From assembly GCF_024349685.1 (NCBI RefSeq), contig NZ_AP025944.1, positions 5,287,001-5,351,000 of the forward strand: a stretch of DNA of 64,000 nt, given 5' to 3'. This document shows positions 15,279 to 37,944 of the stretch, piece after piece. A program made the translations under genes and the position numbers. Each line of letters opens with the position of its first letter. Positions within the stretch are counted from its first letter, which is position 1. Source of the DNA: Pseudomonas sp. LRP2-20. GTDB lineage: Bacteria > Pseudomonadota > Gammaproteobacteria > Pseudomonadales > Pseudomonadaceae. The notes under the pieces are model-generated. The model did no database searches and was not told the DNA's origin. It saw nothing but the letters and a program-made list of their open reading frames with translations.

Positions 15279-15670
15279 GGGGCCGATCAGGATTCGACGC
15301 CGGTAGCGAAACTCTAGGTGCATGCCGAGTTGGTAACAGAACTCGTAAATCCACTGTTGCAACTTTCTATAGTTGCCAATGACGAAAACTACGAGGGCTA
15401 CGCTCTCGCTGCGTAAGCAGCTGAGCCCGCTCTCCTGGTAGCTTCGGCTCCAGCAATCATCAGGGGATGCCTGTAAACCCGAAATGATTGTCATACAGAA
15501 CAGGATCGTCGTGTAGCACGTTGGGGGCAAAGCGACTAAAACTTACCCAACTCATCCAAAGCACCCTGCCCGTCGGGCGGCTGCGGATTAAATCAGTAGA
15601 CACGGCTAAGCATGTAGTACCGACAGCGGAGTACTGGCGGACGGGGGTTCAAATCCCCCCGGCTCCACCA
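15279..15670 (+). ncRNA. ssrA: Transfer-messenger RNA (tmRNA)
   Basis: It rescues stalled ribosomes with SmpB. The 5' end GGGGCCGATCAGGATTCGAC and the 3' end GGTTC...CCCCGGCTCCACCA are the diagnostic tRNA-like termini. The tag reading frame starts at GCC 15375 and ends with TAA at 15416, giving ANDENYEGYALAA. The length is 392 bases. The 3' end, an alanine-tRNA-like T arm and acceptor stem, is the insertion point of the adjacent island, which leaves the gene intact. Confidence 0.98.
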
Positions 15671-15683
15671 AATGATCAATCAA

Positions 15684-15707
15684 AGACGTCCACGGACGTC
15701 TTTTTTT
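15684..15707 (+). terminator. Terminator following ssrA
   Basis: Stem AGACGTC / GACGTCT with a CACG loop, followed by seven T. A closely similar terminator with the same downstream bases (TTTTTTTGTG.CTGAAA) sits at the right island end (50037-50060). This is consistent with duplication or replacement of the ssrA 3' flank on integration. Confidence 0.85.
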
Positions 15708-15783
15708 GTGCCTGAAACCCAGTAAATAAGGGGCTTTCAGCGCCATCAGGATCCGATAGCGTCCAACAGGATCTACGAGATTC

Positions 15784-15853
15784 GGTATTCCAAGTGGTAT
15801 TCCAAGCCATCTACTGGTAGTTTTTGGAATACCGAAACCGCTTTTGGAATACC
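15784..15853. repeat. Left-end integrase arm-type repeats
   Basis: The 10-mer GGTATTCCAA occurs as a direct pair at 15784-15793 and 15796-15805. Its inverse TTGGAATACC occurs at 15824-15833 and 15844-15853, directly before the integrase start. An almost identical direct pair is found at the right end (49937-49959). The repeats probably bind the integrase and also cover its promoter, which suggests autoregulation. Confidence 0.8.
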
Positions 15854-15855
15854 GC

Positions 15856-17103
15856 ATGTGCGCTCAAGCCACCCGCCTCTCGGACCTCAAAGTCAAAGCC
15901 GCTAAGCCTCAAGAGAAGGACTACGTCCTAAGCGATGGTGACGGCCTTCAAATGCGAGTGAGAAGTAATGGCTCTAAACTCTGGAACTTCAACTACCGAC
16001 ATCCGGTGACGAAGAACCGGATCAACATGGGCCTCGGGACCTTCCCCGAAATTTCATTGGCGCAAGCCCGCAAGCGTACCGTTGAGGCACGCGAGCTCCT
16101 CGCTCACGGCATCGACCCCAAAGAGAAACGGGATGCAGTGCAGCAGGCTAAGAAGGCAGCGACTGAGCACACTTTCCAGAACGTGGCGACGGCCTGGTAT
16201 GAGCTGAAAAAAGATGCAGTGACACAGGCCTACGCTGAGGACATCTGGCGCTCCCTCACACTGCACATCTTTCCGTATCTGGGACACACACCACTATCGA
16301 CCATAAGTGCCCCTCAGGTCATTAACCTGCTCCGCCCACTCGAAACCAAGGGCAGCCTTGAAACCGTAAAACGACTGACACAGCGGCTCAACGAGATCAT
16401 GACCTACGGGGTCAACTCGGGACTGATTCACGCAAACCCGCTCAGTGGCATCCGCTCCGTTTTCAAGAAACCGAAAAAGAAAAACATGGCGGCACTACCC
16501 CCCGATGAGCTGAAAGAACTCATGGTGGCAATCGCCAATGCCAGCATAAAAAGAACAACACGCTGCCTGATCGAGTGGCAGCTTCACACCATGACCCGGC
16601 CAGTCGAAGCAGCGACTACCCGCTGGGCAGATATCGACATCGAGAAGAAGATCTGGACGATTCCTGCGGAGCGAATGAAAAAGCGCCGCGCGCACATTGT
16701 CCCGCTCACGGAGCAGGCTCTTGCACTCCTCGAAGCGATCAAGCCCTACAGTGGACATCGGGAATTTGTGTTCCCTGCAGACCGAAACCCACGTACCCAC
16801 TGCAACAGCCAGACCGCCAACATGGCGCTAAAACGAATGGGCTTCGAGGGGCGTCTGGTCAGCCACGGCATGCGGTCGATGGCCAGCACCATCCTCAACG
16901 AGCATGGCTGGGATCCCGAATTGATCGAGGTAGCACTTGCCCACGTCGATAAAGACGAGGTTCGCAGTGCCTACAACCGCGCGGACTACATCGAGCGGAG
17001 ACGGCCGATGATGATCTGGTGGAGTGAGCATATCCAGGAAGCAGCGACGGGTAATCTGTCAGTGTCAGCTATCCAAGAAAATCGGCACAGGGAGGTCGTT
17101 TAG
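15856..17103 (+). CDS. P4-type tyrosine integrase
   Basis: Site-specific recombinase that would integrate and excise the island at ssrA. It has 415 residues, with an N-terminal DUF4102 arm-binding domain (LSDLKVKAAKP... DYVLSDGDGLQMRV) and a core-binding domain. The catalytic domain has R248 (TMTRPVEA), H337 and R340 (SHGMRSM), H363 (LAHVDKD) and nucleophile Y373 (VRSAYNR). All key residues are present. The ATG at 15856 begins the conserved domain. An in-frame TTG at 15844 lies inside an arm repeat. No clear Shine-Dalgarno is seen. Confidence 0.96.
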   Translation: MCAQATRLSDLKVKAAKPQEKDYVLSDGDGLQMRVRSNGSKLWNFNYRHPVTKNRINMGLGTFPEISLAQARKRTVEARELLAHGIDPKEKRDAVQQAKKAATEHTFQNVATAWYELKKDAVTQAYAEDIWRSLTLHIFPYLGHTPLSTISAPQVINLLRPLETKGSLETVKRLTQRLNEIMTYGVNSGLIHANPLSGIRSVFKKPKKKNMAALPPDELKELMVAIANASIKRTTRCLIEWQLHTMTRPVEAATTRWADIDIEKKIWTIPAERMKKRRAHIVPLTEQALALLEAIKPYSGHREFVFPADRNPRTHCNSQTANMALKRMGFEGRLVSHGMRSMASTILNEHGWDPELIEVALAHVDKDEVRSAYNRADYIERRRPMMIWWSEHIQEAATGNLSVSAIQENRHREVV

Positions 17104-17306: not shown

Positions 17307-18185
17307 TTAGTCTAAGCTCAGCCAGAGTTTCAACTCAGCCCGGTTCGCCAGCACCAACTGCTGGGCTTCAGGGCGGGCGTCATGCAGGTTCGGATTTACG
17401 TGAAACCGTTTCACTACGTACTTCGCCAATGCTTGTGAGCTTTTGACCACAAGCTGCCCATCAGTCATGGCGTAGTCCACTTCAATGATCGACCGTTGCG
17501 CCGGCGTCAGGCGCTCGTCCGGCTTGAAGATCACATCGATCTTGGTGTTCCACTCCACGTCGTGCTCGACACCATTTTCCGTCTGATCGTCGAGCAGTTC
17601 CGGCTCGCCTCGAAAACGGCTCAACACAAAGTCCCGGTACTCACGGTTCTTCTCGCAATAAGCCCGCACGTGCCAACGCATCCCGGTGTACACCAACGTG
17701 TGCGGCGCAATAGTGCGCCCTTCCACTTCCGGCGTTTTGAACGACACGTACTCGATGTCCAGACGCCGCTTTTCACGACACGCCTTGAGCAGTGGCCGCA
17801 GCACCTCGGGCCTCACTGAGCGATCGGGTACCTTCAACACTTCAGTGTGCGCGTAAGCCAGGTTCAACCCTTCGATATGCGGCGCACGCTCATCGTTGTG
17901 GTTGAGCAGGTCCAGGTAGGCACTGGCGCTGTCGTCGATGAACAACGGTTTGAACTGCTGGGTTGGCACGTAGCCTTTGATCTGCTTGTCGTAGACCAGA
18001 TTCTTCGAGGCATAGTCGGTGATGTAGGTGTTGATGTCCTTCGATGCTTGCTGCCGGCTGATGCCGAAGCACTGCATCAAGTGGTTGGTAGTCAGGCGCC
18101 CTTCCCACCAGACCACCGTTTCGATCAGGCGGTAGCGCAGGGCAAGGTCCCAGCGGATTTGATCCATGCTTTGCTTATGTTTCAT
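17307..18185 (-). CDS. WYL-domain transcription regulator (CapW/BrxR type)
   Basis: It has 292 residues. An N-terminal winged helix (WWEGRLTTNHLMQCFGISRQQASKDINTYI, about residues 27-56) precedes a WYL ligand-sensing domain with the stretch HTLVYTGMRWHVRAYC and YRDFVLSRF. The C-terminal extension is typical of BrxR/CapW proteins. Such regulators repress anti-phage systems. It sits next to the GTPase/ATPase operon and is clearly related to the BREX regulator at 46305-47237 (HSLVNTGLRWHVRAYC). Its target is likely its own promoter and possibly the neighbouring operon. Confidence 0.9.
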   Translation of the reverse strand: MKHKQSMDQIRWDLALRYRLIETVVWWEGRLTTNHLMQCFGISRQQASKDINTYITDYASKNLVYDKQIKGYVPTQQFKPLFIDDSASAYLDLLNHNDERAPHIEGLNLAYAHTEVLKVPDRSVRPEVLRPLLKACREKRRLDIEYVSFKTPEVEGRTIAPHTLVYTGMRWHVRAYCEKNREYRDFVLSRFRGEPELLDDQTENGVEHDVEWNTKIDVIFKPDERLTPAQRSIIEVDYAMTDGQLVVKSSQALAKYVVKRFHVNPNLHDARPEAQQLVLANRAELKLWLSLD

Positions 18186-18835: not shown

Positions 18836-21190
18836 CTAAAAACTGCGATGAATGCTGGAGAAAAAACCACCTCCACTCCCACCCAGGTGCCTGGTCTCCA
18901 TTATGTGCTTCTTGAACTTCATTTTTTGCTCGTGATCAAGGCATAGGGCTGGATTGTCTGACAGTGCTCGCTTGACCTGATAACTGCCGTCCTCGGCCAA
19001 GATTTGCTGAGCCTCTTTGATCAGCGAAGGATTGCTGGCCAGCTTCTCTCTTACATCCGGATCAGGATCGTTAGCGAGGTTCAGTTGCAAGGCGGCAGAC
19101 AGCTTGGGATTTTTGCTGAGGGTCCCCCTGAGTGCAGGGCTCGCATTACTGAGCAGCGAGCGCTGTTCATCCTCAGTCAAACCAGGGTGCTTGGCGAACG
19201 CTTGCCTCACACTGCTTTTGCCTTCCTCAAGCAACTTGGACTTCACACTGTTCAGTAGCGAGGGATTCAAGATCAGGCCAGCAACAACCGAAGCAAGACG
19301 GTCGCGAGCCAACTTGAACTGGAGGGCTTCGCCTTTGGCACAGGCCGCCAAGGACGCACGTAAATCATCGTCGAGTACATCCTCATCGATCATGCGTATC
19401 AGCAAATCTTGCGGCGCATTGCCATTCAAGCAAGCCAGCTTGAACATCCCATGGTCATACTGCGGTTGACCCTTGACGAGATTGAGCCGAATCGACAGCA
19501 CGTGCTCAGGACACCGCGGATTTGTATAGACCGCCTCCGCCACACTGCGCTGTGCATCCATGGAGAGTTTCTCCAACTGATCACCGGGGCAATCAGGATT
19601 ACGGGCTACCTCCTCCCGCTTCACATGGTTAGGGTCAGCAGCCATCTTGATCATCTGCGCCACGCTCAGCCCCTGATACTCGGATGCCGGGCGCAGCTTC
19701 AGTTTCTCGAATAGCTCCTCGTACTTGCCGACCTGGTCGCGCAAGGTTTCGCGCAAAGGAATGGTGGACTGAATAGCGTCCTTCAGATGCTGCTGCGTCA
19801 ATGCCCCTCCGCCGATGAAGGCGTTGGCTACGGCCTCATTGATCGAGTTCTCGATGTCGGCACCGCAGTAATCCCGACAGAGATTCACCAGCTCATCCAT
19901 TTCCAGGTCAGCGACTTGCTGCCCCGATTTATCCAGATGAATGCTCAGGATTTTTTCTCGCTCCACAGGGTTGGGGAAGCCGACATAGAAGATCTCGTCA
20001 AAGCGCCCCTTGCGCAGCAATTCCGGGGGCAGTGCGGTGATGTCGTTGGCGGTGGCGATGACAAATACGGCACCGGTCTTTTCCTGCATCCAGGTCAGGA
20101 AATAGCCCAGCAGACGAGCAGTCACCTCCGAGGCATTCCCACCGCCCATGCCTACAAACGCTTTCTCCAGCTCATCTACCCACAGGATGCAGGGGCTGAC
20201 AGTCTCGGCCATGCTGAGCGCGCGCCGCATGTTATGCTCGCTCTCCCCCACGTACTTACCCAGCAGAGAACCGATATCCAGACGCAACAGCGGCAGCTGG
20301 AACAAACCGGCAGCTACCTTGGCCGTGAGCGATTTGCCGCAGCCAGGCATGCCTGCGATGAGCACGCCTTTGGGCGTTTTGACGCCCTGCCTCGTTGCCT
20401 CGTCCAGGCGGCGGATAATGGTCGAACGTTGCTCAAGCCATTGCTTCAGGTTTTCCAGGCCACCGATATCGCTGACGCCGACATCGACCCGTACCATCTC
20501 CAGCACACCGCTCTTGACGATGATCTGCTCTTTCTCGTGGAGGATCGTATTCAACGACTGTTCATCGATGGTCTGGGTCTGGCGCGCAACCATCCTCAGT
20601 AGCTGAGCCATTTCGCTGGAGGTCAGCCCGCTCAGGCCAGAAACGGCCAGGTCACTCAGGTGATCCGGAACGGTGAGCTGCCCGCGAGACTCAGCCTCGG
20701 CCAGCATCGCTTTGATTTCAGTGCGGCTCGGTAGAGGCAACGGCAGCAACGTAACCTGGGCCTCGATCGACGCGGGGATGCACACCGCTTCCGAGACCAG
20801 AATGACCGAACACTCGCCTGCATAGTTGCGCTCGATCGAATTCAACAACTGTTTGAGCCGGGCCACCGCAAGCGTATTGTTCTCCAGGGCCAACCGAGCA
20901 CCTTTGATGACGATCAGCGTCTCTTCCAGATCCACGTCCAACAACGCCAACAGAGCGTGCTCCAGCTCCGTTTTACTTGAGTCGAGGTTACTCAGCGGGA
21001 GCTTGTTGTCGACATGCACCCAGCCATAGCCAAGGTTCCATTCGTGGATGCGCTTGAGGTTGGCCTTTTCCTTGAGTCCCAGCAGCAACTGATCGACACG
21101 TGCTTCTTCGGCCGATTGAATGTAGATGGCGGGAGCTCCAGCGAGGAAATGGTCTTCCAACTGGGTTTCGAAAGCCTTTTTATCGGTCAT
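18836..21190 (-). CDS. Ycf46-like AAA+ ATPase with C-terminal LRV-like repeats
   Basis: It has 784 residues and is the last gene of the five-gene operon. Residues about 1-215 look like the degenerate P-loop domain of Ycf46/FtsH-like ATPases. The active AAA+ domain follows, with Walker A at 280-287 (GMPGCGKS), Walker B at 335-340 (ILWVDE) and the LLRKGRFDE segment with arginines near 393-396. Residues about 525-760 consist of short repeats with ANP/SNP turns ([35 protein letters not shown]), resembling leucine-rich-repeat-variant helices. No peptidase motif is seen. It is probably a remodelling ATPase with a recognition domain. The ATG is 9 bp after the upstream stop. Confidence 0.85.
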
Positions 21191-21199
21191 CACTCAGCC

Positions 21200-22453
21200 T
21201 CAATCAAACAGCGATGTGAAGAGTTTTATCGCGCCGCCAACAACCTTCGCTCCCACTTCCTTGACTGTACTCACCACGCTGCGAACCACCTTCTTAGCAA
21301 CCTCGACAACCTTCCTTCCACCCTGTTCGATGAGTGTACCGACGGCTCTCCCTGCCGCACGGCCAACGACACCACCCACAACGCCACCGATAGCCGTACC
21401 ACCGGGACCGAACACAGCGCCTAAAGTAGCCCCCCACTGAGCTCCCAGTTCAGCGCCTTTCTGTTCCACAACCTGAGCCAATGAGCGGGCAGCCACCATG
21501 GTTGTGTGCTCGATTGCGTTGATCGCGGTATCCGCAAGAATGCCGCCTTCCCCGAGCTTGTACAGGGCTTTGGCCCGCTCCAGGCCAACGTAAGTCGTGA
21601 TCGCGACCTCCTCGGCGGAAGTGCCATTGAAGAAGCTCAACCAGCCGCTTTTTGCTGCGACCATCACCCCGCCAGAAACTGCAACCTGTGCACCAACATG
21701 GTCGGCCGACTTCAGCGAGCTATTGAAAAACGCCTGCATTGCCGCGCTGGCAGGTTCGTTTTCTTCACCACGCAGCCAATTCCAGGTGCGTTGTCCGAGA
21801 ATTCGCGCGCCGTGATACGACGCGTTCAGGGCTGCATTCAACAGCGCTTGCTTGTTGATCTCTTTGGAAATCTCCAAGCGGGATGTTTCGTCCCAATTGG
21901 TCACCTGGGTTTCGGCAAGAATCGACGAAGGTGCATGGGTCATATCGCCAGACACTGTGGAATGACGCACACCCGGCTCGAGCGTCTGCGCCAGCGACAC
22001 ATTGGCTGACGCCAGCATCCCCTGCACCTGGCTCGCGTACTCGCTCAGGTTCAACTCGGGATTGTTCTGAGCATCCTGTTCCAGCTCTCTGGCCAACCAA
22101 TTGACCGCGCTCTTTCCCCTGTCGAGGTTTCGTTGCAATGACGCTTTGTGCTGGTTGGTGCGCGAGATGGAGTTGATCAACGAGCGCGCGACAGTCTCGA
22201 CTTCGGCGTTGCCTTGCCACAGATGCGGATACTTATTGAATTCCTGGGTGAGCCATTGATCCAGTGACATCTCGCTGTGATGCTGGTCGTAGGATCGGAT
22301 GAAGCTCCAGATGACCGCAACCGCCTTAGGTGCGCAGGCTGTATCAGCGAAGGCGACCTGGCCAAGCAGGTCAGCTTGGCGCGCTTGTTCGTCTTCGTCT
22401 ACGAGGCGTTGCGCAGTAGCATCAGGGGAAGAAAGTACGTTTGAGGAACTCAC
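21200..22453 (-). CDS. Glycine-zipper protein with hydrophobic/amphipathic C-terminus
   Basis: It has 417 residues and starts with GTG preceded by AAGGA. The first 300 residues are helical and soluble-looking. The last 90 contain a Gly-rich zipper (GATLGAVFGPGGTAIGGVVGGVVG) followed by an alternating basic/hydrophobic helix (KKVVRSVVSTVKEVGAKVVGG). That layout is seen in membrane-inserting or pore-like proteins. I do not recognise a family. It lies between the tail-anchored protein and the AAA+ ATPase. A role as a membrane effector or assembly platform is an inference. Confidence 0.75.
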   Translation of the reverse strand: MSSSNVLSSPDATAQRLVDEDEQARQADLLGQVAFADTACAPKAVAVIWSFIRSYDQHHSEMSLDQWLTQEFNKYPHLWQGNAEVETVARSLINSISRTNQHKASLQRNLDRGKSAVNWLARELEQDAQNNPELNLSEYASQVQGMLASANVSLAQTLEPGVRHSTVSGDMTHAPSSILAETQVTNWDETSRLEISKEINKQALLNAALNASYHGARILGQRTWNWLRGEENEPASAAMQAFFNSSLKSADHVGAQVAVSGGVMVAAKSGWLSFFNGTSAEEVAITTYVGLERAKALYKLGEGGILADTAINAIEHTTMVAARSLAQVVEQKGAELGAQWGATLGAVFGPGGTAIGGVVGGVVGRAAGRAVGTLIEQGGRKVVEVAKKVVRSVVSTVKEVGAKVVGGAIKLFTSLFD

Positions 22454-22547
22454 GACGGGCTGTCCTTGACCGGTTCAAGAAGAGGAAAGGTGACGATCCG
22501 ACTGCAATGCACCGGTGCCGCGACTGTGCCGGGCACCTGTGAAGCTT

Positions 22548-23183
22548 CTACAGGAACGCCTTGGCCAAAAGTGCTACAAGCACTCCAAAGTTCACCGCAA
22601 GCCCCACGCACGTCCAGATGAAGCGCCGCCTGGATACAACATTCGTCGCCTGCGCCTCAGTCTGCTGCGCTGCAATCGCTGACGCGATCTCATCCAGTTT
22701 GACCAACGACTTCTGTTGAGCATCGCGGCTTTCAGCGCGCTGAGCTTGAAAGTCTGCGGCCAAAGTTTTCAGCGCGGTGTTCAGGTGATGCAGTTGTGCT
22801 GCGCCGAGCTTGCTCAGGCGCTCCTCTACACCGGCGATCCCTTCGGAAATTTGACGAGCGCTTTCGGCAACCTGCGCGCCAGCCCTCTCGAACCGGCTGT
22901 CTTGCGCCCCCTCAGCCTGCTGAACCAATGTCTCGACGCGCTTGGACACCTTGTGAACACTGCCAAGATCATCACCCAACTCTTCGAAGGCACTGTTCAG
23001 CTTTTTCAGCTCCGACCGCAAGCTGAGAACACAGGCCTCGAAGTCTCCCTTGAGCGTGAGCGACAGGCCGCCGCTCACCTCTTCAATGCTCCGCTTCACC
23101 GGTACATTGATATGCTTCTCCAGCAGCGCTGACAGCTCTTGATCAGCAGCCGCGATTTCGGCATCCAAATCGGATCGTTCCAT
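22548..23183 (-). CDS. Coiled-coil tail-anchored membrane protein
   Basis: It has 211 residues. Charged heptad-type helices run from residue 1 to about 180 (LRSELKKLNSAFEELGDDLGSVHKVSKRVETL). A single C-terminal membrane segment (WTCVGLAVNFGVLVALLAKAFL) follows basic residues RRR, so the protein is predicted to be anchored to the inner membrane with its body in the cytoplasm. Its ATG overlaps the stop of the GTPase gene (ATGA), which implies translational coupling. No known family was recognised. It may link the GTPases to the membrane. Confidence 0.8.
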   Translation of the reverse strand: MERSDLDAEIAAADQELSALLEKHINVPVKRSIEEVSGGLSLTLKGDFEACVLSLRSELKKLNSAFEELGDDLGSVHKVSKRVETLVQQAEGAQDSRFERAGAQVAESARQISEGIAGVEERLSKLGAAQLHHLNTALKTLAADFQAQRAESRDAQQKSLVKLDEIASAIAAQQTEAQATNVVSRRRFIWTCVGLAVNFGVLVALLAKAFL

Positions 23184-25036
23184 CAGAACTTCTTCCCTTC
23201 CAGCATTTTGTCTAGTTCGCCCAGCAGTACATGCAGGTAGAACATGTCGTAGATCTGCTCCAGCGCACTGAGCGGACGGCGGATGGCTTCCCGGACACGA
23301 TCGAGCTCGGCCTTGAAAGCTTCGAGGATGTATTGTTCGAACTTGTGCGAGTGGTCCATGCTGAATTGCATGCGGGCTTTGAATTGCGCGTGAGCCTGTT
23401 CAAGGTGATAGCGCTTGCCTTGTATGTCCTCCACCGCTTGCTGACGCTCTGCAACGGTTCTTTTCATGACGTCAAGCCGCCGCTTGTAGTCCGAATACTT
23501 ACGTTCCAGGCCACTCTCCTGATGCTCAAAGTACTTCTTAATTTCCAAGTTTGCGGCTTCGGCATAGGCATCCACCACCTTCACAGCTGCTCCAAGAAGC
23601 ATGCTCCGGTCAGAACGGAAGTTCTCGCTGGACCACCAGTAACCGTCGGTGAGATACCCGTCCATCTTCTGATAGAAGCTGCTCAGCGCAGTGGTTGCGG
23701 GTGGCGAAAGCTCAGCCAGCCGAACATGGGCCTGACGATGGGCGTGACGTTCGCACATTGCCTTCCATTTCGCCTGGATCCCGTTTTCGAACTGAATGGC
23801 AACCAACTTTAGGGCACTGACTGATTCGGTAGTATTCGGCAGAGGCTGAACGAAGAAGCCACGAACATCACTACCCTTGTACAGTTTCCGGTAACGGTTC
23901 AGGCGACGCCTGTGATGAACGAGCGTGCCGCTTTCTTCCTGACAGCCACTCAATAGCCCCTCAGCCTGCTTCAACGCATTCAGTTCATGCTGGAGGTCGC
24001 CTTCCAGCCCCTTCCTGTGCTCCTCGTAATGAACCTGCTCTCGATCAAGCCTGGCATCGATCAAGGTTTTCATCTTGAACGCGGACGCGAGCCGGCCGTA
24101 GGGGCTGGCCGACTCGGTGATGCTTGCCAATAGCTCGCGTCGTAATTGCTGAATCAATGTAACGGCTGCTTGATGATATTCAGGCGTCGCCCCCAGGCTT
24201 CGCAGCGAGTCGCCGAACTCCAGTGGGTACAACATCGCCTCGACCGACTTGGGCGGTTTGTAGTCATGGGTACCCAGCTCCTGGTAGAGCTTGGCCCTGA
24301 CCTGCTGAAGCGTTCGCTCGTCTTGGCCGAACCAGGTCTTGAAGCTGGCAGGCGAGAACGTATAGGAGAGCACCACCCGATAGCGGTTGGGCTGCAGCAT
24401 CCAGTCTCCCAACGCCGCCAACTTGAGCTTGTTGGGATGAAGGAAGCCCAAGTCATCTGCACGCCCGACCAGCAAGATCAGATCGGCCGTGGCCACATAC
24501 TTCTCCGCCACCCGCGCGACCTGGGCCTGCTCGGCTTCGTTGACCGCATTGATGCCCGGGATATCGAGAATGCGCAGATCCAGACTCAGCGCATCCCCTC
24601 CTCCTTGCTCGAAGAACATTGATGGCAGCCGCACGGACAACACGTCCACGGACTGTGCTCTACCTTCCTCCAGCTCGGTGCGTATCGCGGAAAACTGCAC
24701 CCTCGCGGCTTCATCATCCAGCGCACCACTGTTGTCGCCGATGTACCAGTAATCATCCTTCGAACGGCCGTAACGAATGGCACAGGCCGTCGAAGACTTG
24801 CCCATACGCTGGTCGCCCCGCAATACGCTGGAAGCACGTTCCAACGCCTCGCCGGTCACACCCAGCAAGTCCAGAATCAGCGTGGTCTTGCCGACCTGGG
24901 TCGCACCATAGACGGCGACCGTCACATGGCTGGAGCGGTTGAAGTCTCCAGCCAGGCTTGGATCTACCTCGCCGATGAAACGCTGATACGCGTCATAGGC
25001 CCAGCGATAGCGGTTGCTGTACTTCTCAAGCCACAT
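23183..25036 (-). CDS. Dynamin-like GTPase 1
   Basis: It has 617 residues from the ATG at 25036 (an ATG at 25057 is possible). G1 P-loop is GATQVGKT (44-51) and G3 is DIPG (158-161). A hydrophobic strand then ends LILLVGRADD, where a canonical N/TKxD is not obvious. The C-terminal 350 residues are largely long coiled-coil helices (EEHRKGLEGDLQHELNALKQAEG..., YKRRLDVMKRTVAERQQAVEDIQ), as in bacterial dynamin-like or septin-like membrane GTPases. It overlaps both neighbours (11 bp and 1 bp). It probably acts with GTPase 2. Confidence 0.82.
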   Translation of the reverse strand: MWLEKYSNRYRWAYDAYQRFIGEVDPSLAGDFNRSSHVTVAVYGATQVGKTTLILDLLGVTGEALERASSVLRGDQRMGKSSTACAIRYGRSKDDYWYIGDNSGALDDEAARVQFSAIRTELEEGRAQSVDVLSVRLPSMFFEQGGGDALSLDLRILDIPGINAVNEAEQAQVARVAEKYVATADLILLVGRADDLGFLHPNKLKLAALGDWMLQPNRYRVVLSYTFSPASFKTWFGQDERTLQQVRAKLYQELGTHDYKPPKSVEAMLYPLEFGDSLRSLGATPEYHQAAVTLIQQLRRELLASITESASPYGRLASAFKMKTLIDARLDREQVHYEEHRKGLEGDLQHELNALKQAEGLLSGCQEESGTLVHHRRRLNRYRKLYKGSDVRGFFVQPLPNTTESVSALKLVAIQFENGIQAKWKAMCERHAHRQAHVRLAELSPPATTALSSFYQKMDGYLTDGYWWSSENFRSDRSMLLGAAVKVVDAYAEAANLEIKKYFEHQESGLERKYSDYKRRLDVMKRTVAERQQAVEDIQGKRYHLEQAHAQFKARMQFSMDHSHKFEQYILEAFKAELDRVREAIRRPLSALEQIYDMFYLHVLLGELDKMLEGKKF

Positions 25037-27140
25037 GGCGGCTTTGCGCCTCATCAATGGCTTTGACCAGGTTCACCCGAGCGTGCTCCAGGCGCGTCAA
25101 CCCACGTGCCAGTGCGTCTTTTACCGTGAGGTCGGCGCCCAGGCCATAGGCCACCCGCAGGTTGCGCACCAGGCGCTCTTCGAGGGTTTCCATCAGGTCG
25201 TCGTAGAGCTCCAGGCCCTTCTTGATATGGGCCTCGGCGAACTGGTTGAGGCTTTCGGCGATGAAGCCCTTGCGCGCCGCATCATAACGCTGAATTTCGG
25301 TAGCACCGCGATAGGCGATGAAACCCAGGGTGATCGCGCCCGCAGCGGCCATGGACAACGAAGCGCCCAGCGAAGCAGCAGTCTGACCGCCCGTCAGCGT
25401 GCCCGCGATGGCGGGGATGGTGTCGATGGAGCCGTCGATGACCACGTCCACTGCGAGGATTGCCGCCAGGGTATTGAGCAGCGGTTTGGCCGATGCGGTG
25501 ACCTTGGGGAGGTCTTGCTGGATGGACGAGGCAAGCTTGCCGAAGTCGAAGGCTTCCAGTTCGGTGCGGGCCAACTCAGGGGTACGTATGGCAACTGCCT
25601 GATTGAGGCGGAAGTACTCCATAGTCATCGCGGGCAGCGCCTTCAGCACCTCTTCGACATGCTTCGCTTTGAATCGCTCGACGTCTTTGGTGGTAGTACT
25701 ACCCTTGGAAAGCAGCAGGCGCAGATCATGCTGCAGCTCTTGAGTACCCACCGCAGGAACTTCGAGAGAGGCACCTTCGTAACCCAGCAGTTTGTTCAAG
25801 CCTTCGTGCTTGATCGCAGCGAGCGCCGTAGGTTTGATTTCCTGAATGCCGAGCTCTTTCGCGGACATATCAGAGATGGCCAAGTAATCGGATTCCAGCG
25901 GTGATTGAAGAGTGTTGGTGCCGTTGCACCAGCAGTCGATAATTCGCGACCTGAAACGAGTCTCGTTTTCACCGGACTGCAACGTGAGGAAGTTCGCCGC
26001 GTGCCTGAGCTTGTTGGTGAAGCCCTCTTCTTCTTCGTTGTATTTTTTCTCAGCGATGTCTTTGACCTGGCCCAGGTAACTATTAGTGTGCTCGCGCAGC
26101 CGTTTGGCATAACGGTTCCGGTAGCGCTCCGACGCCTTGGTAAACACCTCTCGCATCCGCTCGGCTTGGCGCTCGGTCAGGTGTTCACTGATGCTCTGCG
26201 CGTCCATCTCACTTTCCAACGCAGCCTTGACCGTTGCCAGTTCCGTGTCCAGTAGCTTCTCCAGCTCCCGCAGACGACCTGCGTCCGAACCGCCTGCAGA
26301 CAGCGCATATTTGTTGATGACTTCGATGAGTTGGCTGGTCCAGGCAGAGCGGTAGGCCTCGTCGCCAACGCCGGTGAAGATCACACGGTCTTGCTCGTCA
26401 GAGCGGATCTGGAAAACTTCGGCCACGGTGCCGGCCAATTCATCCATTTGCTCAGGAGTAAGCGTTTCGGTCTTGGTGACGGCGATGGCGGGTTTGCGAT
26501 CGGGGAAGTAGCGGGCGACCAGATCGTTGAGAATCTGCTTCTGGCTGTTGTCGGCGACGCGGGTGCGGTCGGTGACCAGGATGCTGCCCAAGGAATGCAC
26601 CAGGGTGTGGCGCATGAGGCCCTGCCACTCGACGTTCTCCGGATTCAGCATTTCGTAGCCTGGGAGCAGTACGAAGCCGCAACGCTGTCCGTCGAAGTAG
26701 CGGCGTGGCACGTAGAGCTTGGGGAACAGGCAGTCGAGGTCACCGGAGTTGTCGTAGCCGCTGATCAGCGCTCGGAACGCCTCCTTGGAGATCGTTTCTT
26801 CTTGCTCGTTGCCTTGGGCGTCGTACTTGACGACTACGGCGTAGGGGGTGTCGCAGTCCTTTTCGAGGATGAACACCGGGATACGCTCGCCGCGACCCTG
26901 GTTGTCTGCAAGCCAGCCCTCGCCCAGAGCGTAAAGTTCGCGGATCAGACGAGTTTTGCCGGCACTTTGGCTGCCGGCTACGCAGATGTAGTAGACCGAA
27001 GATAGCTCGCGGGCAATGCGCAGTTTGCGCAGGATCGAGACCAAGGCTGGGCGGGGGTTGCTACGAGTCTTCAGCTCGGCTGAGATCTTGAGCACACCGG
27101 CTACAGCGGTTTCCATGTCTTTGATCAGGGGGGCTTTCAT
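25026..27140 (-). CDS. Dynamin-like GTPase 2 with membrane hairpin
   Basis: It has 704 residues and is the first gene of the operon. AGGAG lies 7 bases before the ATG. G1 is GSQSAGKT (56-63), the G3 position is degenerate (VLLPGYE, no Asp), and a G4-like VTKTE occurs near 220. A helical stalk follows, then two hydrophobic stretches at about 540-595 (LAAILAVDVVIDG and SMAAAGAITLGFIAY), resembling the paddle of bacterial dynamin-like proteins, and a helical C-terminus. Pairing of two different dynamin-like proteins is known in Leo/Eleos and some cyanobacterial/Bacillus systems, but those lack this AAA+ partner. I infer a membrane-acting defence role. Confidence 0.82.
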   Translation of the reverse strand: MKAPLIKDMETAVAGVLKISAELKTRSNPRPALVSILRKLRIARELSSVYYICVAGSQSAGKTRLIRELYALGEGWLADNQGRGERIPVFILEKDCDTPYAVVVKYDAQGNEQEETISKEAFRALISGYDNSGDLDCLFPKLYVPRRYFDGQRCGFVLLPGYEMLNPENVEWQGLMRHTLVHSLGSILVTDRTRVADNSQKQILNDLVARYFPDRKPAIAVTKTETLTPEQMDELAGTVAEVFQIRSDEQDRVIFTGVGDEAYRSAWTSQLIEVINKYALSAGGSDAGRLRELEKLLDTELATVKAALESEMDAQSISEHLTERQAERMREVFTKASERYRNRYAKRLREHTNSYLGQVKDIAEKKYNEEEEGFTNKLRHAANFLTLQSGENETRFRSRIIDCWCNGTNTLQSPLESDYLAISDMSAKELGIQEIKPTALAAIKHEGLNKLLGYEGASLEVPAVGTQELQHDLRLLLSKGSTTTKDVERFKAKHVEEVLKALPAMTMEYFRLNQAVAIRTPELARTELEAFDFGKLASSIQQDLPKVTASAKPLLNTLAAILAVDVVIDGSIDTIPAIAGTLTGGQTAASLGASLSMAAAGAITLGFIAYRGATEIQRYDAARKGFIAESLNQFAEAHIKKGLELYDDLMETLEERLVRNLRVAYGLGADLTVKDALARGLTRLEHARVNLVKAIDEAQSRHVA

Positions 27141-27468
27141 CAACTACTCCTGTTGAAACACGCGCAATGTTGGTGAGGTCATCGGCTTGTAAAGGGATTT
27201 CTTGATTATCTAACCGACGCAATGATGGCCATTAGCCCGCCATCAACTCAAGTCTGTATTTATCCTCGGACGCTCTCCTCTTTGGCACGTTTACTCTTTC
27301 AGCAAAAGTGGCGAATTGGCCCTTTAAATGCTGATGAATTGCTATAGAAATCAACAGTGAGGTCACCGATCGGACAGACGTGAGAAAGATACTCAGCAAA
27401 AAATCGACTCAAAAAAATTTCAATCACACATAACCCCAACGACATCATCACCATTGAGGTTCACCCCC
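27141..27468. promoter_or_regulatory. Divergent promoter region, GTPase operon / zinc-ribbon module
   Basis: This is 328 bp of comparatively A/T-rich DNA between two divergent operons. On the minus strand a GATAAT -10-like element (27210-27205) precedes the GTPase operon by about 65 bp, without a convincing -35. No CTACATGTCT motif is visible here. No gene is supported. Confidence 0.4.
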
Positions 27469-27798
27469 ATGTCGTTGCAATGCCCTCTCTGCCACTCCCC
27501 TAGAATCGCCTCCTTCCATCACGCTATGAAAGTCGGTGCGACCATAGGCACCGTAGGCGGTGTTGCGCGTGGCGTCAGCGCGGCCCTATCTGCCGGTCAG
27601 ACTGGCGCAGCCATCGGTGCTATCGCAGGACCGGTCGGCATCACCCTCGGCTCCGTATCAGGCGCCATATTGGGCGGCCTGGCCGGCGGTGTCGGTGGCT
27701 GCGTGCTTGGCGCTCAGCTAGGTGAATCACTCGATCGCCACGTCTTGGCCCACAACCTCTGCCTGCAATGCGGTCATCGCTTCAACCTGCCGACCTGA
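27469..27798 (+). CDS. Zinc-ribbon/glycine-zipper small protein
   Basis: It has 109 residues. An N-terminal CPLCHS knuckle and a C-terminal CLQCGH knuckle could bind one zinc. Between them lies a glycine-zipper hydrophobic segment (residues about 22-90, GTVGGVARG... AIGAIAGPVG... GGLAGGVGG). The start at 27469 has TGAGG upstream and gives the cysteine motif near the N-terminus. Such proteins often lead DUF932/YqaJ gene sets on plasmids and islands. Their function is unknown to me. Confidence 0.8.
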   Translation: MSLQCPLCHSPRIASFHHAMKVGATIGTVGGVARGVSAALSAGQTGAAIGAIAGPVGITLGSVSGAILGGLAGGVGGCVLGAQLGESLDRHVLAHNLCLQCGHRFNLPT

Positions 27799-27883
27799 TT
27801 GGCCCTTTCTCTTTTCATTTATACGTCCGGTGCTGCGCTTCGCGCAGCGCTTTATGCCTGCCCGTACTAAAGGAATCACCCAC

Positions 27884-28852
27884 ATGGCACATCTCATCGA
27901 AACCATGGCCTACGCTGGCACTACCCCGTGGCATGGCCTGGGTAATCCGCTCAGTCAGAAGCAACCTATCGAAGTCTGGCAACGCGAAGCTGGAATGGAC
28001 TGGCAGATTCTGGAAAGCCCCGTGCATTTCAAATCGGATGCTATCGGCCACCTGGGCGCGATCCACTCCTTCCCCGAGCAAAAGGTGCTCTATCGATCCG
28101 ACAGCAAGGCGCCGCTGTCGGTGGTCTCTCAGCGCTATCACACGGTGCAGCCCCGAGAGGTACTCGAGTTTTATCGTGACCTCACCGAAGTTTCCGGCTA
28201 CGAGTTGGAAACGGCCGGCGTGCTCAAGGGTGGGCGCAAGTTCTGGGCGCTGGCGCGTACTGGGCAAGGCGCGGCGCTCAAGGGCAACGACCAGGTGAAT
28301 GGCTATCTGCTGCTGGCGACCTCCTGCGACGGCACACTGGCCACCACAGCCACACCAACCACGGTGCGCGTCGTGTGCAACAACACCCTGACCATCGCCC
28401 TGGATGGCACCTGCCGGGCGATCAAGGTGCCGCACAACACCCGTTTCGATCCGAAGGCGGTGAAGAAGCAACTCGGTATCGCCGTCTCGCAATGGGACGA
28501 CTTCATGCACCGCATGCGTGCCCTGGCTGAGCGCAAGGTGCAGTGGCATGAGGCATTGGGCTTCTTCATGACCGTGATGTGCGAGACCAGTCCGACCGGA
28601 GTACTGCCGGAGCAACTGCCCAACGAGCGCGCCCTGCGCAAGGTTCAGGAGCTGTACGAAGGTCGTGGTCGCGGCAGCCAGCTGGACTCGGCGCGCGGTA
28701 CCGCCTGGGGCCTGCTCAACGCCGTGACCGAGTACGTCGACCACGAGCGCCGTGCGCGCAGCAACGAGTACCGCATGGACTCGGCCTGGTTCGGCCAGGG
28801 CGCGCAAATCAAGCAACGCGCCCTGGATGCTGCGCTGCAGCTCGCCGCTTAA
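27884..28852 (+). CDS. DUF932 (phage/plasmid-like, TIGR03299) protein
   Basis: It has 322 residues, starting MAHLIETMAYAGTTPWHGLG. The WHGLG region and later SQRYHTVQPREVLEFYRDL and CNNTL are typical of the DUF932 family found on plasmids, ICEs and phages beside recombination genes. Its biochemical role is unproven. AAAGGAAT precedes the ATG at 27884, which was preferred to an upstream frame overlapping the zinc-ribbon gene. Confidence 0.9.
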   Translation: MAHLIETMAYAGTTPWHGLGNPLSQKQPIEVWQREAGMDWQILESPVHFKSDAIGHLGAIHSFPEQKVLYRSDSKAPLSVVSQRYHTVQPREVLEFYRDLTEVSGYELETAGVLKGGRKFWALARTGQGAALKGNDQVNGYLLLATSCDGTLATTATPTTVRVVCNNTLTIALDGTCRAIKVPHNTRFDPKAVKKQLGIAVSQWDDFMHRMRALAERKVQWHEALGFFMTVMCETSPTGVLPEQLPNERALRKVQELYEGRGRGSQLDSARGTAWGLLNAVTEYVDHERRARSNEYRMDSAWFGQGAQIKQRALDAALQLAA

Positions 28853-28927
28853 CCCTCACTCACCTCAATCCTCGCGCCCGGTCAGCCTTGTGCTGATCGG
28901 GCCTTCTTATATCTGCAGGTGAATACC

Positions 28928-29932
28928 ATGAAAGCAACGTCATTGAACGGCAGCACCACCAAGAAACGCCCAGCCCTGCGCCTGGTCAGCACCAAGGAGC
29001 TGCCTCGCGAGGACTGGCTGCAGATACGCAAGCAAGGCATCGGCAGTTCGGATGCAGCCGCTGCCATAGGCCTGAATCCCTACAAGTCCCAGCTGGAGCT
29101 GTGGCTGGAGAAAACCGATCGCGATGCCGGCATGCCCAAGGCCAATCCCCACGATGAGGAAAGCCCGATGTACTGGGGGAATATGCTCGAGCCCATCGTG
29201 GCCTGGCACTACAGCAAACGCACCAGGCATAAAGTCCGTCGCATCAACGCCGTGCTGCAGCATTCGGATCCGGAGTTGCCTTGGATGCTCGCCAACATCG
29301 ACCGCGAGGTGATCGGTGCCGACGATGTGCAGATCCTCGAATGCAAGACCGTCGGAATAAACGGGGCACGCCTCTGGAAAGAGGGCGTCCCCGAGTATGT
29401 TCAGCTTCAAGTGATGCACCAACTCGCCGTCACCGGCAAACAGGCTGCAGATGTGGCGGTGCTGCTCGGCGGTCAGACGTTGGAGGTCCATCGAATTGAG
29501 AGGGACGAACAACTCATCACGCGCCTGATCGAACTAGAGCGCAAGTTTTGGCAGTACGTGGAGACCGATACGCCACCGCCAACCGATGGCACCGCCTCTG
29601 CTGAATCCGCATTGCGCTGCCTTTATCCGGAGGACAACGGCCAAGTCGTAGACTTCAGTGACCATGCCGGACTGAGCGCTGCCTTCATCGAGCTCAAGGC
29701 CGTCCGCCAGTCGATTGCCGACAAGGAAAAGCGCGAGGCCGAGCTCAAGCAGATATTACAGCAGGCCATGGGCGACGCCAGCCGGGCAGAGTTCACCGGC
29801 GGCTATGTCAGTTGGCGCAAAGCCAAGGACAGCGTCGGCCTTAATGTCGCTCAACTGCTCCAGGACAAGCCTTACTTGCAGGCCAAGTACCCACTACTGA
29901 AAGCTGGTGCTCGGCACTTCCTGGTCGGCTGA
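28928..29932 (+). CDS. YqaJ-type viral recombinase / exonuclease
   Basis: Lambda-exonuclease-like 5'-3' nuclease of 334 residues. It contains WLQIRKQGIGSSDAAAAIGLNPYKS at the N-terminus. The PD-(D/E)xK core follows, with MLEPIVAWHY, the segment LANIDRE, and the active-site pair LECKT (E-x-K) near residue 140, then QLQVMHQLAVTG. It probably resects DNA ends for a single-strand annealing partner. GTG at 28919 is an alternative start. It lies in a co-directional set with DUF932, the four-cysteine protein and RadC. Confidence 0.9.
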   Translation: MKATSLNGSTTKKRPALRLVSTKELPREDWLQIRKQGIGSSDAAAAIGLNPYKSQLELWLEKTDRDAGMPKANPHDEESPMYWGNMLEPIVAWHYSKRTRHKVRRINAVLQHSDPELPWMLANIDREVIGADDVQILECKTVGINGARLWKEGVPEYVQLQVMHQLAVTGKQAADVAVLLGGQTLEVHRIERDEQLITRLIELERKFWQYVETDTPPPTDGTASAESALRCLYPEDNGQVVDFSDHAGLSAAFIELKAVRQSIADKEKREAELKQILQQAMGDASRAEFTGGYVSWRKAKDSVGLNVAQLLQDKPYLQAKYPLLKAGARHFLVG

Positions 29933-30020
29933 TTTTCACATTCCTCACTCCATCCCCCTTGGTCAGTTCATGCAGTTCGCGCTGCGTGGCTGGCTTTTTT
30001 TCATTTTCAGGAGAACCACC

Positions 30021-30971
30021 ATGCTGAAAGGCTTAGCCCTGACGCCCCCAGTGCTCGGGCGCATCTCCATCGGTAAGGTCATCGAGAAAAATGGCAAGCG
30101 TCTGCCGGAGAAGGATGACCAGTTCACCATCACCTCCCAGGTACAAGCCAAGGACGGCTGGCTGTTGCACCCTCTCAACGACGGGCTTCGTCAGGGTAAG
30201 GACGACAAACTGCGAAGCATTCCGGTGCGCCTGCTGTTCAACGAGCCTGAGCTGAACCTTCGTGCCGACTACACCCTATTTGATCGACAGTCCGGACGAC
30301 CGCTGTGCGTGGGCAATGGTGAGACCTGCAAGCGCGTCACTCAAGAAGGTATGCAGTCTCTGCCCTGCCCTTCGCCGGATGCCTGCCCACTGGCCAAGGG
30401 TAATGCCTGTAGGCCCTACGGACGGCTAAACGTGATCATTGGCGATGAGGATCCGCTAGGTAGCTTTGTGTTCCGCACCACCGGCTTCAACAGCATCCGC
30501 ACGCTAGCTGCCCGGCTGTATTACTTCCAGGCCATTTCCGGCAACCGTTTGGCGTGCCTGCCGCTGGAGCTGCGCCTACGTGGCAAGTCGACTCGTCAGA
30601 GTCATGGCACGCCGATCTTCTACGTCGACCTGACAGTACGCGGCGGTATGGACATGGCTGAGGGGCTACAAGCCGCCAATGAGCTCGATGCGAAGCGGAA
30701 AGCAGCAGGCTTCGATCAAGCTGCGTTGGATGAAGCGGCGCAGCGTGGCTTCGCCAATGGCGCGTTCGAGGACAGCGAGGAAGACGCCGGCACCATCGTC
30801 GAGGAGTTCTACCCCGTCGAGGAGAGCCAATCCCCTATCGCCAAGACTCCCCAGCGATCCGTGAAAAACAGCCTGGCCGAAAAGCTGGAGGCGCAAGCCC
30901 TGCGCCATACCCCACTGCTGGATCATTACCAAGGAGCCCAGCATGCGACTGCACAAGCTGAAGGCCAGTGA
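30021..30971 (+). CDS. Four-cysteine RDF-like / 'hydrolase or metal-binding' protein
   Basis: It has 316 residues, starting MLKGLALTPPVLGRISIG after AGGAGAACC. A cysteine set (CKRV, LPCP, DACP, NACR, residues about 115-145) is likely to bind a metal or Fe-S cluster. The beta-rich core resembles proteins annotated as recombination-directionality-factor-like (Gp3-like). The Glu/Asp-rich C-terminus overlaps radC by 29 bp. By neighbourhood it may be the single-strand-binding or annealing partner of YqaJ, or it may control excision. Neither is proven. Confidence 0.75.
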   Translation: MLKGLALTPPVLGRISIGKVIEKNGKRLPEKDDQFTITSQVQAKDGWLLHPLNDGLRQGKDDKLRSIPVRLLFNEPELNLRADYTLFDRQSGRPLCVGNGETCKRVTQEGMQSLPCPSPDACPLAKGNACRPYGRLNVIIGDEDPLGSFVFRTTGFNSIRTLAARLYYFQAISGNRLACLPLELRLRGKSTRQSHGTPIFYVDLTVRGGMDMAEGLQAANELDAKRKAAGFDQAALDEAAQRGFANGAFEDSEEDAGTIVEEFYPVEESQSPIAKTPQRSVKNSLAEKLEAQALRHTPLLDHYQGAQHATAQAEGQ

Positions 30972-33775: not shown

Positions 33776-33781
33776 TTCCAC

Positions 33782-36100: not shown

Positions 36101-36153
36101 AGTAGTCCTTGGCGGTTGGCTTCGTACCAGTCAAAACAAGGTTGAATACATAA

Positions 36154-37941
36154 TCACAAAACCGACAGAGGATACGTCTTCAGCAACTCTTGCACCAAAA
36201 GATCCGTTCGTACCTTGAGCTTATCCACGGTCCAACTGGTTTCGTTGGCCAACGCCTGGTTCAAGTACAGACCATTGTTGTAGCCAACCTTCCGCCCCTG
36301 GCTATCCACGCGGTTCTGCTTCTCGGCAAAGCTCTTGTTGCCAAGCGCACTGTTGTAGCCAGAGATGGTCAGGTTGCCCAGAGAATGGGCATAGGTCTGA
36401 CGGTACTGCTCAGCAAGGGCGGAGTCACCGCTGGCCATCATCTGCACCCAGGTATCAGGGATGTTCTCCCCCTGCGGGAAGATGTGCTCGATGGTCCAGA
36501 CGTATTGCTTGCCTTTCAAGGCCCAGAGATCAACCTGCGTCTCGCGGGTCATACGGTTTTCTTCCAGCGCGCAAAGTACAAAGCGGCAAACGGCTTTGTT
36601 GTCCTCGTAGATTGGTCCCTTGAGGCTCTTCTCAAACTGCTCATCGCTTGCGCTTTCGGCGGTCAGACGATGTTTGATTTGACTGACAACAGCATCCCCT
36701 CTCAACGCCATGATTGCCTCAGCCACATCCATGAAGATGCGTGTCAGATCTCGGGTAGGTGGGAGGTCGGTGGTATTGCGGCGCACAAAGAAGGCAATCA
36801 AGTAGTGAACAACCTGCTCTAGCTGAGAATGATCAAGCGCCAAAGCCTCCCGGTACTCAAACAGCACCATCAACAACAGATAAGCCGCCGCACCTTGGAT
36901 ACGGTCCAGCGACAGTAGCAGGCGGGACAACTTCGGCTGATCCGATACGGCACAGTAGCCAACAATCTGCGCGTAATGGATCGAGAGCCGAATCATCGCC
37001 TGCAGAAAGTTCTCAGCATCATGGGCGATCAGCTTCTCATAAACCTGCATCAGATTCGACTTGGTCGCCACCGGCACCGAGACAATAGTTTTCAGCTCCG
37101 GCTTGAACGCGTTGTAGTACTGCCGGAAAAAACGCTCCTGCACCGCGTAGTCATCACCCAGAGCATCGATGACCTTCTTCCAGCGGTTATATTGTTTGTC
37201 GATAGAGCCAGGATCCTTGGACTCCAATACCGCCAGCAGCTTGTTCTTGATCAGATCAATGGCCGTTAGCGGTACGCCACGATTGTTCAGCGACTCAAAC
37301 AAAGTATAGGCATCGGAATGCCCTGCTACCTCGATCTTGACCAAGTTGGCGGTGTTCACTTTTTCAAGCAGAGCTTGCAGGCTAGCTACCGGATCATTAA
37401 GCCCTACCAGATACTGCTCAATGCGCCACAGAAAGTGCCGGTAGGCTTTCAGCACGCGGCGGTTACCTGCATTCGGCACCAGCTCCACATCCTCCAAAAT
37501 CCCAGCCCTGTTGAGCACCGCGAAGTAATCCTGCTGGTTGTTGTTCTGTACCTGGGGAATCATCCGGGCCTGATCTGGCTTTTTCTTCAGCACCAGTTTG
37601 TGCTTAAGGTTGTAAAGCTCGATCTGTTGTTCCATGCCCAGATTGGGTTGCGCCTTGTAGCTTTCGTAAATCGCAGCCAGCAGCAATGACAACGTCGTCA
37701 TACGCTGCTGGCCATCCACGAGCTCCAGGCTTTGCACCGACAAAGCATCCTGCGACTGGTTGATGCAGATGATCGAGCCGAGGAAGTAATTAGCCTCGTT
37801 ATCCAGCAGGTCGTCAAACAGTGCATCCCACTGGGCGCGGGTCCAGGTGTACTCGCGCTGGTAGCGTGGGATGGCATAGATCACCCCACTTTCAATATCG
37901 AGCAAGGTGGAGACGGGGTAGTTGTGGACGGATTTGATCAT
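36154..37941 (-). CDS. GmrSD-like DUF262/DUF1524 nuclease within the BREX operon
   Basis: It has 595 residues. The N-terminal DUF262 domain has IPRYQREYTW (24-33) and DGQQR (76-80). The latter is the ParB/Srx-like motif that binds or hydrolyses nucleotide in type IV enzymes. The C-terminal DUF1524 HNH-type nuclease has WTIEHIFPQ, LGNLTI and YNSALGNKSFAEK. Single-chain GmrSD/BrxU-like enzymes cut modified phage DNA, so the gene would complement BREX against phages with modified bases. It starts 3 bp after the pglX stop and is part of the operon. Confidence 0.92.
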   Translation of the reverse strand: MIKSVHNYPVSTLLDIESGVIYAIPRYQREYTWTRAQWDALFDDLLDNEANYFLGSIICINQSQDALSVQSLELVDGQQRMTTLSLLLAAIYESYKAQPNLGMEQQIELYNLKHKLVLKKKPDQARMIPQVQNNNQQDYFAVLNRAGILEDVELVPNAGNRRVLKAYRHFLWRIEQYLVGLNDPVASLQALLEKVNTANLVKIEVAGHSDAYTLFESLNNRGVPLTAIDLIKNKLLAVLESKDPGSIDKQYNRWKKVIDALGDDYAVQERFFRQYYNAFKPELKTIVSVPVATKSNLMQVYEKLIAHDAENFLQAMIRLSIHYAQIVGYCAVSDQPKLSRLLLSLDRIQGAAAYLLLMVLFEYREALALDHSQLEQVVHYLIAFFVRRNTTDLPPTRDLTRIFMDVAEAIMALRGDAVVSQIKHRLTAESASDEQFEKSLKGPIYEDNKAVCRFVLCALEENRMTRETQVDLWALKGKQYVWTIEHIFPQGENIPDTWVQMMASGDSALAEQYRQTYAHSLGNLTISGYNSALGNKSFAEKQNRVDSQGRKVGYNNGLYLNQALANETSWTVDKLKVRTDLLVQELLKTYPLSVL

Positions 37942-37944
37942 CAG

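Follow-up and report, generated by a model that had tools for sequence, protein, structure and literature searches.

Several described systems resemble parts of the locus reported here. Eleos encodes two dynamin-like GTPases together, and dynamin genes likewise come in pairs for the bacterial dynamin-like proteins 5owv/5oxf, which we take to be Campylobacter proteins. Bacillus subtilis DynA is a dynamin-like protein tied to phage resistance and membrane surveillance (PMC8844932), and the eukaryotic set of Dnm1, tail-anchored Fis1 and the AAA-ATPase Yta4/ATAD1 offers a works-like comparison for a dynamin, a tail-anchored adaptor and an AAA ATPase, with no claim of homology for the adaptor (PMC10465003). 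The second extended form of Type III-A CoCoNuT has a SpoVK/Cdc48-like AAA+ ATPase with a C-terminal repeat adjoining a glycine-zipper protein whose PD-(D/E)xK fold is inactivated (PMC11090510, 2024). Here we describe five genes of Pseudomonas sp. LRP2-20 in a window, meaning the whole analysed stretch of 64,000 nucleotides (NZ_AP025944.1, positions 5,287,001 to 5,351,000), which is part of a single-contig genome of 6.03 Mb. The initial annotation of this DNA had listed five leftward open reading frames (ORFs), with which the ORF list agrees; all lie on the minus strand in the order G2-G1-CC-GZ-AAA:

25026-27143, minus strand: G2, dynamin-superfamily protein, 705 aa
23183-25057, minus strand: G1, dynamin-like GTPase, 624 aa
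22548-23183, minus strand: CC, third core protein, coiled-coil-like, 211 aa
21200-22453, minus strand: GZ, short-type glycine-zipper protein, 417 aa
18836-21193, minus strand: AAA, Ycf46/SpoVK/Cdc48-type AAA+ ATPase with an LRV/HEAT-like repeat tail, 785 aa

We give a probability of roughly 0.6 to the reading that the locus consists of two adjacent defence-type modules, the core (G2-G1-CC) and the GZ-AAA pair, on one ssrA-integrated island, working by the mechanisms proposed below. The five genes, previously annotated as one system, appear to be two modules rather than a single conserved five-gene system, the first three recurring without the last two and the last two without the first three. 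The two modules are present together only in the window's own genome among 348 Pseudomonas genomes, and GZ was found in one of 50 core-bearing genomes, so that the full five-gene block is largely absent as a co-occurring unit. GZ was not found in Pseudomonas sp. 8O (L006), the nearest relative fetched, whose G2, G1 and CC are 94.5%, 79.3% and 78.2% identical to those of the window, respectively. GZ-AAA without the core occurs in three other Pseudomonas genomes (G130, G319, G332) and in plasmid operons. AAA was matched at E ≤ 1e-60 in four of 18 genomes or records, in Pseudomonas iridis at 81% identity and in the other three at 35-43% in frames of 515-545 aa. Because GZ and AAA accompany the core this seldom, their adjacency in the window is read as a combination at the level of the island, there being some hints that the pairing has recurred, and one conserved five-gene system was set aside as the leading reading on the separate recurrence of the two modules.

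The genes are closely packed, with a 32-nt overlap of G2 and G1 (G1 counted from its first possible start) and, from the coordinates, a 1-nt overlap of G1 and CC and gaps of 94 nt between CC and GZ and 6 nt between GZ and AAA. The coding strand of the CC-GZ gap held no terminator-like or promoter-like site and the numbers of such sites across the whole stretch were not above those in shuffles, so it is possible that the five genes lie on one transcript.

G2 carries the P-loop GSQSAGKT, LLPG in place of DxPG, and TKTE, and G1 carries the P-loop GATQVGKT and DIPG and has no TKxD; the motifs GSQSAGKT, GATQVGKT and DIPG had been named in the initial annotation and are present in the two proteins (the motif names are those of the usual G motifs). 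D[IL]PG is found in 25/25 aligned G1 sequences and GxTQVGKT in 24/25, the exception being an incomplete row, and T/NKxD after strand 5 is missing from all 25. LLPG[YF]E is found in 31/31 aligned G2 sequences, [TS]KTE in 21/31, GRTE in 2/31, and neither of the latter in 8 Bacillota rows. Neither protein has the full dynamin motif set (P-loop, DxPG and T/NKxD) and, as read from the sequences, the loss is reciprocal, of TKxD in G1 and of DxPG in G2. Hydropathy places hydrophobic segments at residues 555-573 and 592-610 of G2, all 31 aligned G2 sequences having a segment of at least 1.6 after residue 480, and a single one at 187-205 of CC, near the C-terminus, in keeping with its annotation as a tail-anchored protein. 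The predicted structure of G1 has a very long helix (477-593).

The description of both GTPases as dynamin-type also holds: G1 matches Pfam Dynamin_N above the family cut-off (E 1.7e-7), and the predicted models of G1 and G2 match bacterial dynamin-like proteins, including BDLP and IniA, plus mitofusins. GIMAP rows rank below dynamin rows in the structure search with the G2 model, and GIMAP and IRG rows stand at E 1e-3 or weaker with the G1 model; the LeoA structure is not among the best 50 rows of any of the structure searches with these models, which shows nothing either way. No Pfam family matched G2 above its cut-off. In the PDB sequence search the G1 profile had no match at E ≤ 0.1 and the G2 profile matched Sey1 over the P-loop region (E 3.6e-5), the other 41 rows being weaker and mostly helical or P-loop noise. 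The core differs from 5owv/5oxf, BDLP and IniA, whose folds match its models, in the reciprocal DxPG/TKxD loss and the third, anchored gene. To our knowledge, DynA, which shares with it a dynamin-like protein, is not part of a three-gene set on mobile DNA. No name for a dynamin pair with a tail-anchored third gene as a defence system was found in the literature searched, most subscription papers lying outside it.

The nearest G1 homologue among the matches listed comes from P. juntendi, at 99% identity. Against Pseudomonas sp. 8O, the first six 50-residue blocks of G1 are 84-100% identical and later blocks as little as 42%, and dN is 0.027 for G2, 0.047 for G1 1-340, 0.248 for G1 341-624 and 0.117 for CC. 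Positive selection on G1 and CC is not claimed, dN/dS being well under 1 (0.236 or less where computable, with two comparisons saturated).

The core spans at least two bacterial phyla, from Pseudomonas to Bacillota. A profile scan of genome contigs with the G1 alignment gave 50 loci, which together with three plasmid and three further genome loci make a table of 56 rows; L132 repeats L008 and L134 repeats L014, leaving 54 distinct loci, and L005 had been excluded in advance. G2 immediately precedes G1 in 52/54 (cut by the contig end in L018, L028 and L043), the two misses, L008 and L020, having G2 in two pieces. A same-strand third ORF follows G1 in 52/54 (missing in L028 and L054); those of L003, L032, L035 and L044 appear to be different genes or pieces of genes, so that 48 remain, with lengths of 173-462 aa. 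The third protein has a C-terminal hydrophobic segment (Kyte-Doolittle mean ≥ 1.7 over 19 residues) in 41/54 distinct loci, and a profile grown from the window's CC recovered 13 ORFs, spread over 13 members of a set of 56 sequences. Occurrence is patchy, with G1 at E ≤ 1e-20 in 7 of the 348 Pseudomonas genomes (G000, the window's own, G007, G211, G236, G271, G289 and G316). Plasmid records gave 12 G1 matches, none spanning 80% of G1. In phage records G1 had a single weak match, 25% identical across 45%, to a record of 6.7 kb that carries no annotation. Scans of viral contigs returned 277 (GZ) and 2 (G1) pattern-matching stretches, among which no relative was confirmed, and the locus DNA had no megablast match in E. 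coli genomes. A Sphingomonas plasmid encodes a 1261-aa protein (L005:5967-9752), part of which is G1-like and which may be a fused pair; a phospholipase D-family gene precedes it. In P. viridiflava the ORF after the core, in place of GZ, is a PDC-S26-like candidate defence protein (L007:12606-13895, E 5.8e-29).

The AAA+/glycine-zipper set, which the initial annotation had found lacking in described dynamin-based defence, is already in print as a pair, in the CoCoNuT extension (PMC11090510). In the window, as in that extension, a glycine-zipper gene directly precedes a SpoVK/Cdc48-like AAA+ gene with a C-terminal repeat. The AAA+ domain, annotated as Ycf46-like, matches PF00004 at E 1.6e-28, LRV repeats fall below cut-off, the best PDB matches are of VCP/p97 type, and the source of homologue P0286 calls that protein SpoVK/Ycf46/Vps4; these matches, with the 35-43% identity to the 515-545 aa frames given above, place AAA in the Ycf46/SpoVK/Cdc48 type. 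A putative degenerate ATPase-like part lies ahead of the AAA+ domain, judging from the residues and from PMC11090510. GZ matches only Gly-zipper_YMGG in Pfam, below cut-off (E 0.0052).

GZ has 90 homologues at E ≤ 1e-3, and AAA adjoins GZ in all 8 distinct loci whose context was read. GZ was matched in 18 of the 348 Pseudomonas genomes, strongly in the window's own, G130, G319 and G332; the other 14 (E 2.1e-6 to 9.9e-4) were set aside as matches to the zipper stretch only. AAA matched at E ≤ 1e-100 in the same four, next to GZ. A WYL gene precedes GZ in G332, and G130 has a 99% identical protein there. AAA is 1419 aa long in G332 and G130, 1480 aa in G319 and 715 aa on the plasmids; 1419-aa AAA+ relatives with very long LRV/HEAT-like tails stand at L080:4748-9007 and L081:5267-9526. 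GZ reached E ≤ 1e-10 in 2/369 genomes of the class sample, the window's own and G403, where GZ and AAA are each in two pieces and are followed by Card1-like, kinase and helicase genes, as on plasmids. Phage records searched with GZ gave no match.

GZ was found in 15 plasmid records, of which two contexts were read (NZ_CP084774.1 and NZ_CP056712.1). Among locus ORFs, the window GZ matches the two plasmid proteins at E 5.5e-58 and 1.2e-57 and the window AAA at E 5.1e-117 and 2.8e-115; gene order is the same in window and plasmids, with gaps of 6 and 2 nt, respectively. The NZ_CP056712.1 operon is annotated as VWA, hypothetical (GZ), AAA, CARF, VWA, PP2C, kinase, AAA helicase, hypothetical, 'ParA' and DUF2357, which fits the description of second extended Type III-A (PMC11090510); filing the plasmid operons under CoCoNuT is our own assignment. 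No McrB-like GTPase, McrC/DUF2357 or TerY-P triad was found among the 21 distinct window ORFs, a part of all window ORFs, that were scanned with Pfam or PADLOC. The window's pair differs from CoCoNuT in its neighbour, the dynamin core, and in its GZ, whose relatives of 489-566 aa have a middle domain that it lacks. A midpoint-rooted FastTree phylogeny of GZ was built from 92 sequences and 388 columns, without three listed proteins shorter than 380 aa. In it, all 27 sequences of less than 450 aa group in a single clade (support 1.0) beside long forms including those of G319 and G332, and the domain was therefore probably lost once. From PMC11090510 and a D...QxK pattern we infer that it would be the PD-(D/E)xK part.

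For the neighbourhood of the core, four near-duplicate loci were removed and 79 ORFs (39 loci) were randomly drawn from 387 neighbour ORFs of 45 loci, with 79 ORFs from 13 stretches of ordinary chromosome of the same genome set as controls. The neighbours match 79 PADLOC families at E ≤ 1e-10, the 25 best including ZacA/ZacB, HEC-06, SngB, bSEFIR, type II methyltransferases, BrxD and IetS, and the controls 13, including mad3, AriA and PDC-M56A (best E 2.7e-136); these figures count families, several overlapping, not proteins. Sampled core neighbours are thus rich in defence families relative to ordinary chromosome, a contrast that may include general island enrichment, and this together with BREX in the window bears out the defence-island setting proposed in the initial annotation.

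In the mechanism we propose, the core is a paired bacterial dynamin cassette whose G1 and G2 would join in a hetero-oligomer on the inner membrane. G2 would put its hydrophobic hairpin into the membrane and, because its DxPG aspartate is lost, act mainly as a structural or regulatory partner, with G1 as the source of an intact DxPG. CC, anchored at its C-terminus, may recruit or license G1/G2, like the tail-anchored adaptors of Drp1/Dnm1 at mitochondria. When infection disturbs the membrane, nucleotide-driven assembly would remodel it, either holding the damage together or breaking the membrane. In the GZ-AAA module a Cdc48-like hexamer, with the repeat tail of AAA as a binding arm, would unfold or load a membrane-inserting glycine-zipper protein; the two modules lie head to tail in the island, perhaps with a common transcript. 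The core is a compact, testable dynamin pair with complementary GTPase-motif loss and usually a dedicated anchored partner, set among defence genes, and if it defends, it would show how bacteria counter phage by remodelling membranes. That GZ-AAA has a history of its own suggests that the cassette described from CoCoNuT is mobile, able to follow a WYL gene with no further CoCoNuT genes beside it, and that one clade has shortened it. We also consider, as a doubtful extension, that the core is an unnamed, widespread anti-phage system in which two dynamins with complementary motif losses, one catalytic and the other a pseudo-GTPase, have one common working site and are brought in by a tail-anchored adaptor, the whole being a bacterial counterpart of Drp1-Fis1/Mff; the window lineage would have added to it a reduced relative of CoCoNuT's GZ-AAA, which would pull the adaptor out of the membrane and so reset the assembly.

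Several observations weigh against the two-module reading. In P. iridis (G747) a single contig carries the core at 37092-41987 and GZ-AAA, its GZ of the short type, at 23899-27777. The roughly 9 kb between them hold an MkoA-like helicase gene, ORFs of 510 and 222 aa, a WYL gene, two more ORFs and, on the opposite strand, a 215-aa ORF. When the sizes of the longest contigs of the first 54 G1 (two without length omitted), 27 GZ and 65 AAA homologues listed were compared, equal sizes numbered 10 for GZ/AAA, 2 for G1/AAA (18,706 and 165,135 bases) and 1 for G1/GZ (18,706); such shared lengths, among them the 18,706 bases common to all three, are indirect evidence of pairing. Some coupling between the modules may therefore exist, both having been seen near each other more than once. 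Homology of the third protein is established for part of the loci only, the G1 and G2 models are single chains, a setting among defence genes is no proof of a defence role, and at the low dN/dS given above the divergence may be relaxed constraint. The same co-occurrences, along with the tight spacing in the window, favour one integrated five-gene system in which the AAA+ protein (with GZ) would control the dynamins, for example by pulling CC with its anchor out of the membrane, comparable to the action of Yta4/Msp1 on Fis1 and Dnm1 (PMC10465003). The short GZ forms are moreover one clade of 27, and in both readable short-type contexts the island or contig that holds the pair also holds the core; however, both were reached via the window or the core, a biased sample. 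The lack of a GZ match in 49 of 50 core-bearing genomes, including the nearest relative fetched, the lack of the core in three of four GZ-AAA-bearing Pseudomonas genomes, and the other genes between the modules in P. iridis make this integrated system unlikely in our judgement.

That the core is a divergent Eleos (LeoA-LeoBC) with the remaining genes as passenger DNA would agree with paired dynamins in defence islands in both and with PADLOC matches of G1 (LeoBC E 2.1e-11, LeoA E 8.1e-7), G2 (LeoBC E 0.0094) and CC (LeoC 0.017, LeoBC 0.028). The LeoBC model, however, matches something in 76/76 genomes and 14/14 control genomes; in 45/48 same-genus genomes its best match (1e-10 to 7e-15) is mostly a frame of about 494-529 aa, presumably EngA/Der, and in the window's own genome a 529-aa frame (E 1.2e-14) beats G1 (E 3.1e-9). 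Three Pseudomonas genomes with strong LeoBC matches supplied Leo-type loci (L109-L111), to whose proteins the G1, G2 and CC profiles had no match at E ≤ 1. With hhalign only short G-domain overlaps appeared (G2 5% and 17%; G1 49% over 64 columns and 91% over 94 columns), against 94% over 178 columns between G1 and G2. The core is thus not recognisably homologous to Eleos beyond the G domain, is without a split GTPase gene, and has a coiled-coil-like, C-terminally anchored third protein; on the unspecific model, the profile null and the short overlaps, identity with Eleos was set aside as very improbable, in line with the distinction drawn in the initial annotation. A role in envelope maintenance or vesicle release on mobile DNA instead of anti-phage defence, suggested by the ties of LeoA and LeoB to vesicle release (PMC4159319) and of DynA to membrane surveillance (PMC8844932), is distinctly unlikely given the patchy occurrence and the defence-gene neighbours of the core.

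The five-gene set sits on a BREX-bearing island at ssrA, between ssrA and a second copy of a 35-bp stretch; the ssrA and BREX setting and the neighbouring WYL protein named in the initial annotation are confirmed, and a tyrosine-type integrase is present as well:

15279-15670, plus strand: tmRNA gene (ssrA)
15683-15717, plus strand: 35-bp stretch spanning the hairpin directly after ssrA, likely left island end
15844-17103, plus strand: tyrosine-type integrase
17307-18185, minus strand: WYL-domain regulator (Pfam and PADLOC)
31733-47258, minus strand: BREX genes (BrxL, PglZ, DUF262/HEC-06-like gene, PglX, BrxC, BrxA, WYL gene)
50036-50070, plus strand: second copy of the 35-bp stretch, likely right island end

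ssrA is likely the integration site. The 35-bp imperfect direct repeat (30/35 identical; local score 45 vs 25 for the next unrelated tile) spans the hairpin after ssrA, not the tRNA-like 3' end, and its two copies are likely the island ends. Close relatives of the 17307-18185 WYL regulator stand beside the dynamin core in G271 and near GZ-AAA in P. iridis, and it may serve either the core or GZ-AAA. 'Type I' is our own reading of the BREX gene set, within which the DUF262/HEC-06-like gene (36154-37941, minus strand) lies between the PglX and PglZ genes. DUF932, YqaJ recombinase and Gp3-like (recombination directionality factor-like) genes (27722-30971, plus strand) separate the dynamin core from BREX. 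A Pseudomonas defence hotspot (GI-Hotspot 9) with a YqaJ-like flanking gene has 'Dynamins' in its cargo, among which the core could be (PMC12629846). Upstream of the operon on the opposite strand, a 114-aa ORF (27454-27798, plus strand) has a glycine-rich zipper-like stretch and a weak match to GZ (E 0.01).

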